Below, piece after piece: positions 47 to 61,754 of a stretch of DNA of 64,000 nt. The DNA is taken from positions 1 to 64,000 of the forward strand of contig JAOAQX010000023.1 in assembly GCA_025210805.1 (NCBI GenBank). The letters are read 5' to 3'. The notes beneath the pieces were generated by a model. That model ran no database searches. It saw only the letters and a list, made by a program, of their open reading frames with translations, and was not told the DNA's origin. The position numbers and the translations under genes are program-made. Source of the DNA: Flavobacteriales bacterium (lineage in GTDB: Bacteria; Bacteroidota; Bacteroidia; Flavobacteriales; CAJXXR01). Within the stretch, counting starts at the first letter, position 1. Each line of letters begins with the position of its first letter.

Positions 47-94
47 AACTTATGTTGTGTATTAATTAGTAATCTATTCTCTGAATTAAAAAAG

Positions 95-168
95 CGGTCT
101 GGACGGGACTCGAACCCGCGACCCCCTGCGTGACAGGCAGGTATTCTAACCAACTGAACTACCAGACC
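95..168 (-). tRNA. tRNA-Asp (GUC)
   Basis: This is a complete 74-nt cloverleaf on the minus strand. Acceptor GGTCTGG pairs with CCAGACC, with discriminator G. The anticodon arm is CCTGC-CTGTCAC-GCAGG, which gives anticodon GTC (Asp). The T arm contains GGTTCGAGTCCC. The CCA end is not encoded. It is transcribed leftwards together with the copy at 1-46, and decayed copies of the same gene lie just upstream (181-320). Confidence 0.97.
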
Positions 169-266
169 AACTTATTTTTTTATAAGTCTCGGATCAGCGA
201 CCACTCCCGATGATAATCGGGATATTTAACCAACTGAACTACCAGACCAACTTATTTTTTTATAAG
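147..266. repeat. 40-bp direct repeat covering tRNA-Asp 5' end plus leader
   Basis: Positions 147-186 and 227-266 are identical over 40 bp. Each unit holds the first ~22 nt of tRNA-Asp and the 18 nt upstream of it, including a short CTTAT..ATAAG hairpin. The 80-bp period is about one tRNA plus spacer, so the array seems to have grown by tandem duplication, after which one copy decayed. Confidence 0.9.
181..248 (-). pseudogene. tRNA-Asp remnant with replaced anticodon arm
   Basis: The 5' 22 nt (acceptor strand and D arm) match tRNA-Asp exactly. The anticodon arm is replaced by a perfect hairpin, TCCCGAT-TATC-ATCGGGA, that cannot form the normal 5-bp stem with a 7-nt loop. The T arm is recognisable but mutated, and the 3' acceptor strand no longer pairs with the 5' end. 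It cannot be a working tRNA. It lies in the leader of the live tRNA-Asp genes. Confidence 0.8.
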
Positions 267-3468: not shown

Positions 3469-3644
3469 ATTTTTTTCTTTATTGAAGGCATTTGCCTAAG
3501 ATTTTTTGTTTTTAGTTTACCAAAAATTGGAATCCAACGAATGTATCAATTTAAGGTAAAGAATAGGTCAACTCATATTGAAGTTGAAGTTAACAAAAAA
3601 AGAAGTAGGGAGGTTGTTATTTAGAAAAAAAAGGCACAAAAAAA

Positions 3645-3739
3645 GGCAAGCTACTTATGTCACATCGCTACGACCACCTACCCTTGCTTCGATCAAGATC
3701 TGGGGGAGTTCAGCAGGAGCTGATTGCATAAGACTTGCC
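3645..3739 (-). ncRNA. ffs: signal recognition particle RNA (small bacterial type)
   Basis: About 95 nt on the minus strand that folds into one long rod. Ends GGCAAG/CTTGCC pair, then CTTATG/CATAAG, then an ATC..GCT/AGC..GAT segment. The core CTGAACTCCCCCAG ... AAGCAAGGGTAGG is the conserved helix 8 of bacterial SRP RNA (asymmetric loop AGCAAGGG). A run of seven T follows the last stem, as in an intrinsic terminator. A consensus promoter sits six bases upstream. The apical loop reads TCTTGATCGA where most bacteria have TCCGGAAGGA (see findings). The RNA partners Ffh in membrane targeting. An overlapping plus-strand reading frame (3578-3817) is not a gene. Confidence 0.82.
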
Positions 3740-3744
3740 GATGA

Positions 3745-3774
3745 CAAAAGTACGAATTTCGGCTACTTTACAAA
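3745..3774 (-). promoter_or_regulatory. promoter of the SRP RNA
   Basis: The minus strand has TTTG (3774-3771), an 18-nt spacer and TACTTTTG (3752-3745), a full match to TAnnTTTG. The predicted start is at about 3739, exactly the first G of the terminal stem GGCAAG. This agreement supports both the promoter and the RNA's strand. Confidence 0.75.
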
Positions 3775-61365: not shown

Positions 61366-61447
61366 GGAGAGGTGGCAGAGTGGTAATGCAGCAGCCTGCT
61401 AAGCTGTGCACCTTAGGGTGTCCCGGGTTCGAATCCCGGTCTCTCCG
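61366..61447 (+). tRNA. tRNA-Ser (GCU)
   Basis: 82 nt with acceptor GGAGAGG/TCTCTCC, anticodon loop CTGCTAA giving GCT (Ser AGC/AGU codons), a variable arm, and T arm GGGTTCGAATCCC. The discriminator is G and CCA is not encoded. A small hairpin follows before tRNA-Pro, likely a processing spacer. Confidence 0.95.
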
Positions 61448-61483
61448 CATTCTTATTAAGAATGCACTTTTTGATAACCAACT

Positions 61484-61558
61484 CGGGGTGTAGCGTAGCC
61501 CGGTTATCGCGCCACGTTTGGGACGTGGAGGTCGCAGGTTCGAATCCTGCCACCCCGA
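61484..61558 (+). tRNA. tRNA-Pro (UGG)
   Basis: 75 nt with acceptor CGGGGTG/CACCCCG, anticodon loop TTTGGGA giving TGG (Pro), and T arm AGGTTCGAATCCT. The discriminator is A and CCA is not encoded. Confidence 0.96.
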
Positions 61559-61570
61559 CTTTTTTTTAAT

Positions 61571-61644
61571 GGTCGCGTAGCTCAGCTGGATAGAGCATCT
61601 GCCTTCTAAGCAGACGGTCATAGGTTCGAATCCTATCGCGATCA
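61571..61644 (+). tRNA. tRNA-Arg (UCU)
   Basis: 74 nt with acceptor GGTCGCG/CGCGATC (one G-U), anticodon arm TCTGC-CTTCTAA-GCAGA giving TCT (Arg AGA/AGG), and T arm AGGTTCGAATCCT. It lies 12 bp after tRNA-Pro. Its 3' 31 nt are repeated exactly at 61723-61753. Confidence 0.96.
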
Positions 61645-61646
61645 CA

Positions 61647-61680
61647 CAAAAGCCTTCAGATTTTTCTGGGGGCTTTTTTT
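61647..61680 (+). terminator. terminator of the tRNA operon
   Basis: AAAAGCC ... GGGCTTTT with inner pairing TCAGA/TCTGG and a T loop, followed by seven T, 3 bp after tRNA-Arg. Confidence 0.8.
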
Positions 61681-61691
61681 GTATAATAAGC

Positions 61692-61754
61692 ATGGGATAG
61701 TGCATTCCGATTTTTAATCGGAACGGTCATAGGTTCGAATCCTATCGCGATCAC
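61692..61754 (+). pseudogene. tRNA-Arg remnant with replaced anticodon arm
   Basis: Positions 61723-61754 match the tRNA-Arg 3' part plus one flanking base (61614-61645) over 32 nt. Before it, GGGATAGTGCAT resembles the D-arm end. The anticodon arm is replaced by TTCCGAT-TTTTA-ATCGGAA, a 7-bp hairpin that could also be read as a 5-bp stem with loop TTTTTAA. The 5' acceptor strand and most of the D arm are absent, so no cloverleaf can form. It lies past the operon terminator. Confidence 0.85.

Follow-up and report, generated by a model that had tools for sequence, protein, structure and literature searches.

REP palindromes are tied to RAYT proteins, Y1 transposases that are single-domain DNA-processing enzymes, and have non-autonomous derivatives. 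The rtT repeats of the Escherichia coli tyrT operon are tandem repeats bearing the 3′ end of a tRNA gene; to our knowledge, they contain neither a nuclease ORF nor a tRNA arm replaced by a palindrome. Integrative elements target tRNA genes and leave a tRNA fragment upon integration, and group I introns may carry GIY-YIG genes. In phage T6, SegB is a free-standing GIY-YIG homing endonuclease that cuts within tRNA genes and, together with homologous recombination, leads to tandem amplification of a tRNA segment (PMC13096335).

In this work, we relate a tRNA-Arg remnant in a 64,000-nucleotide stretch (the window) of a Flavobacteriales genome to a family of very small tRNA-linked elements that is apparently undescribed. 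Like SegB, these elements have a stand-alone GIY-YIG nuclease that adjoins tRNA genes, and they form tandem tRNA/nuclease units, a likeness that involves no direct sequence comparison. Unlike SegB, which is phage-borne in that account (PMC13096335), their copies lie in cellular genomes, with one partial relative of the nuclease coming from a single scan of viral contigs. Split tRNA halves and palindromic modules are features of the elements for which no counterpart was found in the same partial account (PMC13096335). As with REP and RAYT, short palindromes are tied to a single-domain enzyme and non-autonomous derivatives exist, but the enzyme is of the GIY-YIG type and not a Y1 transposase, and the location is tied to tRNA genes. 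Their tandem repeats bear a tRNA 3′ end, as rtT repeats do, and they use tRNA genes as a target and leave a tRNA fragment, as integrative elements and introns do. Unlike integrative elements, however, they show no recombinase in their units of ~350–490 bp (the unit ORFs were inspected, without a dedicated recombinase search), and unlike group I introns they have no intron core at eight loci and hold an intact tRNA inside a split one. In how they behave, they come closest to free-standing homing endonucleases. No description of such elements was found in the open-access PMC literature, with most subscription papers and preprints outside that scope, and the portions of PMC12306157 and PMC2635572 accessible to us describe none.

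Module-bearing tRNA copies in the window and its genome

The intact tRNA-Arg(TCT) of the window is the last member of a Ser-Pro-Arg cluster and the sole gene with a TCT anticodon in a genome-wide tRNA survey (Table 1). The remnant behind it keeps the final 32 nt of the gene exactly, as the earlier note had claimed, and has a hairpin where the anticodon arm should be, again as claimed, with a stem one pair longer than the note had counted: the palindromic module TTCCGATTTTTAATCGGAA forms a perfect 8-bp stem with a 3-nt loop. On the D-arm side, the remnant is partly retained (61690–61704), and as a whole it still scores 30.2 bits against the Rfam tRNA model, for which the cut-off is 29. A role of the module as a terminator was rejected, given that no T-run follows it and that it occupies positions ~28–44 of the tRNA.

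Table 1 Features of the two tRNA loci in the window.
Feature	Position	Strand	Basis
Second tRNA-Asp, 5′ part, truncated by the contig end	1..46	-	Rfam, sequence
Intact tRNA-Asp(GTC)	94..168	-	ARAGORN
Upstream tRNA-Asp copy with retained 5′ half, module and decayed 3′ half	186..248	-	sequence
Palindrome in the upstream Asp copy: TCCCGATTATCATCGGGA on the minus strand (222-205)	205..222	.	sequence
tRNA-Ser(GCT) and tRNA-Pro(TGG)	61366..61559	+	ARAGORN
Intact tRNA-Arg(TCT)	61571..61645	+	ARAGORN, Rfam
Terminator-like hairpin with T-run, between intact tRNA-Arg and remnant	61646..61681	+	sequence
tRNA-Arg remnant with a trace of the D-arm, a palindromic module and an exact 3′ half	61690..61754	+	sequence, Rfam
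Palindromic module TTCCGATTTTTAATCGGAA replacing the anticodon arm of the tRNA-Arg remnant	61705..61723	.	sequence
Last 32 nt of tRNA-Arg, unchanged from the intact gene	61723..61754	+	sequence

In many relatives, a nuclease element is present in the same Ser-Pro-Arg cluster. The window differs from these in that no nuclease ORF lies between the intact tRNA-Arg and its remnant, so the assignment of this locus rests on analogy with short ORF-less units in relatives that consist of a module and a 3′ half (L084, L143 and L145). By that analogy, we propose that the nuclease gene has been lost by deletion, so that an intact tRNA remains, followed by a module and a 3′ half.

The counterpart that had been described for tRNA-Asp is also present, with a like palindrome at the same place in the tRNA as in the Arg remnant. 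This module is identical to that of a downstream Asp copy on another contig, C34. The last bases of the truncated tRNA-Asp (CGCAGGGG) match the start of C34, where a tRNA-Asp continues; because the two ends share these letters and both lie inside tRNA-Asp, the minus strand of the contig that holds the window (C23) probably joins the plus strand of C34. If so, the joined locus would probably read, in order, 5′-half copy, module, intact Asp, intact Asp, module with 3′ half, and broken nuclease gene. This last gene (C34:322–498) is the only GIY-YIG relative in the genome at E ≤ 1e-12; it is frameshifted and directly follows the terminator of the downstream tRNA-Asp copy that bears a module. Two module-bearing tRNA-Asn copies are found on contig C10, between two intact tRNA-Asn genes. 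In the tRNA survey, the only intact Asp(GTC), Asn(GTT) and Arg(TCT) copies found are those at the module-bearing loci, and the genome holds decayed versions of the element at Arg, Asp and Asn.

Other RNA features were seen in this genome. A Bacteroidales small SRP RNA (Rfam) lies at 3640–3747 on the minus strand of the window. Tightly packed, degenerate tRNA-like pieces from several isotypes, which differ from the module-bearing copies, fill C3:178200–178660 (L056, 400–660), and a 5′-side tRNA-Leu-like fragment without a palindromic module stands beside an intact tRNA-Leu(CAA) at C6:116521–116555 (L057).

Frequency and form of the palindromic module

The palindrome CCGAT-n(0–12)-ATCGG occurs twice in the window, compared to 0.13 occurrences expected from shuffles, and CCGAT-n-ATCGG has 28 sites in the 3.12-Mb genome, compared to 11 for the backward pattern. 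Five of the 28 sites fall within tRNA-like copies (one Arg, two Asp and two Asn), a footprint of ~3.8 kb in which 0.03 would be expected (P ~3e-10), which excludes chance for the link to tRNAs. A sixth site, a terminator-like hairpin behind tRNA-Leu (C7:223782), was left out of the tRNA-like count. The wider class TYCCG-n-CGGRA is represented by 99 sites in the same genome (22 in the control); it is common outside tRNAs, and some of its sites lie inside other dispersed repeats. The earlier note had reasoned that the coincidence would mean less if the palindrome were spread at random with no tRNA link: the link itself stands far above chance, whereas the wider class is frequent outside tRNAs as well, so that this expectation was met only in part. 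In one genome where our search found no such nuclease (G019), there are 60 sites of the class compared to 11 in the control. Since palindromes are abundant there without a nuclease having been found, the module cannot be called specific to the element.

Among dispersed repeats, one in the genome of the window carries TCCCGAAAAATCGGGA-type palindromes, often with a CAAGCTATTC flank (for example, L211–L215, L221–L223 and L225). In another genome (L189), the acceptor stem of a tRNA-Asp remnant is interrupted by a CAAGCTATTC flank together with a palindrome.

Conservation concerns a palindromic module bounded by TYCCG/CGGRA and not one fixed sequence. We collected 40 distinct modules, in which the outer pairs 1 and 3–5 are set by the search pattern. 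At the free positions, pair 6 is Watson–Crick in 39 of the 40 modules, with two pair types, and pair 7 in 36 of the 40, with four pair types; neither shows a G-T pair. Judged from this alignment, the free pairs covary and it is palindromy itself that is conserved. Spacer length varies among the 40 modules. The segment of the tRNA that is replaced is nearly constant per isotype (Ala 28–44, Arg ~29–43, Val ~29–45, Ser 28–35, Asp 51–58 or 28–44). We rejected, as a general rule, an arm-for-arm replacement that preserves the tRNA fold, because only positions 28–35 are replaced in Ser and because many Asp elements have their module in the T-arm instead of the anticodon arm.

Intact tRNA genes nested in split ones

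A search for the end of the D-arm followed by the palindrome returned 60 sites in 30 of the 395 genomes of the order and none in the control; one of these sites (in G180) was judged by its letters not to be tRNA-like. The copies are often in tandem and lie mostly near the tRNA-Arg of the Ser-Pro-Arg cluster, with others near tRNA-Ala. With a pattern agnostic to the arm, applied to 120 genomes of one family, the copies in tRNA context among the matches listed have either a functional arm or a palindrome, two of the palindromes being imperfect; a dozen of the matches listed have unrelated inner sequence and were judged, by letters only, not to be tRNAs. Among the matches listed, the intact tRNA beside an element has the same anticodon arm as in element-free genomes.

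Many remnants start within the 3′ end of an ORF of ~80–100 codons that begins just behind the terminator of the intact tRNA, and the nuclease ORF often terminates within the remnant (..RIEHPDF* or ..SAG*). Which half of the tRNA survives depends on the side of the intact gene: among upstream copies with a module, 32 of 36 have the 5′ half and 2 of 36 have the 3′ half, whereas among downstream ones the 3′ half is present in 59 of 92 and the 5′ half in only 13, counts that include related genomes and tandem copies. Under a strict module test, 60 distinct loci in which a tRNA is followed by the GIY-YIG gene, some of them first found via the palindrome, have a module on both flanks in 17 cases, on the 3′ flank only in 23, on the 5′ flank only in 4 and on neither in 16. 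Several of the last group have other hairpins (L163, L175 and L237) or decayed remnants. Together, the asymmetry of the retained halves and the flank counts indicate an intact tRNA and a nuclease gene inside a split tRNA, with one module per junction.

As read from these loci, a complete unit begins with the 5′ half of a tRNA, a palindromic module, an intact tRNA of the same type and a terminator, and continues with a predicted GIY-YIG ORF of ~80–100 codons, a second module, the 3′ half of the tRNA and, often, a copy of the terminator. The same sequence comparisons establish its recurrence at many isotypes across the phylum searched, its amplification in tandem (with a unit period of 358 bp in G039 and ~490 bp in G388) and its ORF-less derivatives. 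Within one genus, two genomes (G271 and G447) have one downstream gene directly behind the intact tRNA-Arg and its terminator, and a third (G388) has ~1.6 kb of nuclease units before that gene; in all three, an upstream 5′ half carries a palindrome or near-palindrome. By this comparison of gene order, occupied and ORF-less versions of one tRNA-Arg locus exist within a single genus. A mirror order, in which a palindrome-bearing remnant is followed by the nuclease gene and then the intact tRNA, is seen at two tRNA-Met loci (L208 and L210) and one tRNA-Ile locus (L197).

A GIY-YIG nuclease beside ten tRNA types

The nuclease ORF matches PF01541 above the Pfam cut-off in all four proteins compared (E values from 1e-16 to 2.7e-6), and 17 of 17 diverse nucleases share nine invariant columns, including Y5, Y16, G18, R27, H31, E63 and K67. 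We take Y5, Y16, G18, R27 and E63 to be the signature tyrosines, glycine, arginine and glutamate of GIY-YIG enzymes, and the Pfam matches and invariant residues together settle the fold family. More distant matches are weak: the closest solved chain is 1zg2 (UPF0213 BH0048, E = 0.023), two of four proteins match the group I intron endonuclease model TIGR01453 below its cut-off, and one of two weakly matches a PHROG homing endonuclease. In ten pairs with measurable dS and sequences that are not near-identical, dN/dS ranges from 0.05 to 0.18; three further pairs are saturated, and one near-identical pair gives 0.69. As far as such ratios can tell, the nuclease is under purifying selection.

In protein searches that used no tRNA condition, 25 of 196 genomes from the order had GIY-YIG matches at E ≤ 1e-12, with a patchy distribution, as did 38 of 392 from the phylum at E ≤ 1e-16. 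From both searches and leftover loci we classified 75 distinct copies, which are not independent events because tandem arrays give more than one copy per locus. A same-strand tRNA lies within 1.5 kb of 69 of the 75. Remnants of the nearby tRNA accompany 64 copies, and 51 of these remnants contain a TYCCG-n-CGGRA palindrome; elsewhere other hairpins take its place (for example, L163 at Pro, L175 at Asp, and L208 and L237 at Met). The six copies without a tRNA comprise four at contig edges (L155, L168, L172 and L190), the C34 copy of the window's own genome (L174) and one with none nearby (L235). Four tRNA-adjacent copies have no remnant (L202, L227, L230 and L233), and L161 has lost the end of its ORF. 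At one tRNA-Ala nuclease locus (L171), two Flavo-1 RNAs (RF01705; 351–426 and 2800–2877) flank the locus. Flavo-1 RNA in a relative and the Bacteroidales SRP RNA of the window suggest that the phylum is probably Bacteroidota.

The loci involve ten amino-acid types: Arg(TCT, CCT), Val, Ala, Asp, Asn, Pro(TGG, CGG), Ser, Met, Ile and Lys. That a palindrome of the same class at the same place in unrelated tRNAs points to a shared cause, as the earlier note had argued, is thus supported by a GIY-YIG element found beside all ten. On a tree of the nuclease, isotype labels are clustered, with 19 changes compared to a shuffled mean of 40.6, a result to which near-copies contribute; the tree has 83 columns only and two frame-shifted rows that are junk.

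Origin of the remnants

We consider it highly probable that the Arg, Asp and Asn remnants are decayed footprints of one very small, tRNA-nested GIY-YIG element family. They could instead reflect ordinary decay, in which tandem tRNA duplicates degenerate, a common palindromic repeat lands in them by chance and the nearby GIY-YIG genes have no connection with them. TYCCG-n-CGGRA palindromes are indeed frequent elsewhere (99 compared to 22 sites), also in other repeats, but 51 of the 64 remnants next to a GIY-YIG gene contain a module, the replaced stretch hardly varies within an isotype and the asymmetry between 5′ and 3′ halves is unexpected from free decay of full copies; moreover, among the matches listed for one family, copies in tRNA context show a functional arm or a module and no other decayed arm. 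We regard such decay as improbable. It is very improbable, in our view, that the remnant is an attR left by an integrase-type island that attached at the tRNA 3′ end: such islands classically leave an intact tRNA with a 3′ half behind it, which speaks for this origin, yet the ORF of the unit encodes a GIY-YIG nuclease and not a recombinase, the units are a few hundred base pairs long and in tandem, 5′ halves are present upstream, and plain integration leaves the replacement of the anticodon arm unexplained. A group I intron with a GIY-YIG ORF in the anticodon loop, since decayed, has in its favour that such introns invade tRNA genes and bear homing endonucleases, as reported in PMC3984707, along with the sub-threshold TIGR01453 matches of two of the four proteins. 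We find it barely tenable, as Rfam detects no group I intron, nor any other intron family, in eight nuclease loci, the ORF does not lie inside an intron there, and an intact tRNA stands between the halves.

For a tRNA-nested GIY-YIG element, spread of the homing type is the likely mechanism, phage SegB being nearest in behaviour. The nuclease would cut the DNA of a tRNA gene, and the break would be repaired by recombination with a copy of the element, steps that we infer without any cutting or movement having been observed; the element may then spread like a free-standing homing endonuclease and grow in tandem, and the adjacent intact tRNA would keep the cell alive. Counting against the element as a whole is the unchanged arm of the intact tRNA, since an arm-specific nuclease should cut its own host too, a difficulty that is unresolved; the copies without a remnant or a tRNA, the 16 loci with a module on neither flank and the palindromes of G019 count against it as well. 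The role of the module is the least certain part. Of its possible roles we favour, tentatively and with the doubts prevailing, that it replaces the recognition or cutting site of the nuclease in the broken tRNA copies and so prevents re-cutting. Alternatively, and equally unproven, the module is a hairpin on which the nuclease acts: as a working part of the element, it would be a DNA hairpin end recognised by the nuclease, with movement similar to that of REP and RAYT and with tRNA genes as landing sites. Modules at both junctions fit this possibility, as do ORF-less derivatives that retain the module and 3′ half and amplify in tandem, and the conserved palindromy, whose changes on both sides without G-T at pairs 6 and 7 suit DNA better than RNA, and whose varying spacer is easier to reconcile with a hairpin than with a fixed dimer site. 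However, the unit contains no transposase-like ORF (at periods of 358 bp in G039 and ~490 bp in G388), modules are numerous in G019, where our search found no such nuclease, and we know of no GIY-YIG enzyme that works as a hairpin-end mover; we therefore keep this as a possibility on the unlikely side. Doubtful as well, though worth stating, is that the unit is a cleave-and-rescue element, in which the nuclease would break an essential tRNA gene and the same unit would supply a working copy of it, with modules marking and inactivating the broken halves and with spread from tRNA to tRNA across the phylum, the nuclease type changing with isotype. A host of such a unit could not lose it without losing the tRNA, as the unit supplies the working copy.

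Discussion

tRNA genes are known to receive large elements equipped with a recombinase of their own. The elements described here span a few hundred bases, hold a single small nuclease gene and appear to have spread into many different tRNA genes of a phylum, with an intact tRNA lodged inside the broken one. If confirmed, the unit would rank as a selfish element of essential genes that is very small, the equivalent on bacterial chromosomes of SegB in phage, as well as a source of changes in tRNA copy number and of pseudo-tRNA clutter in annotation. It also raises the testable question of how a tRNA-linked nuclease spares the copy that its host needs.
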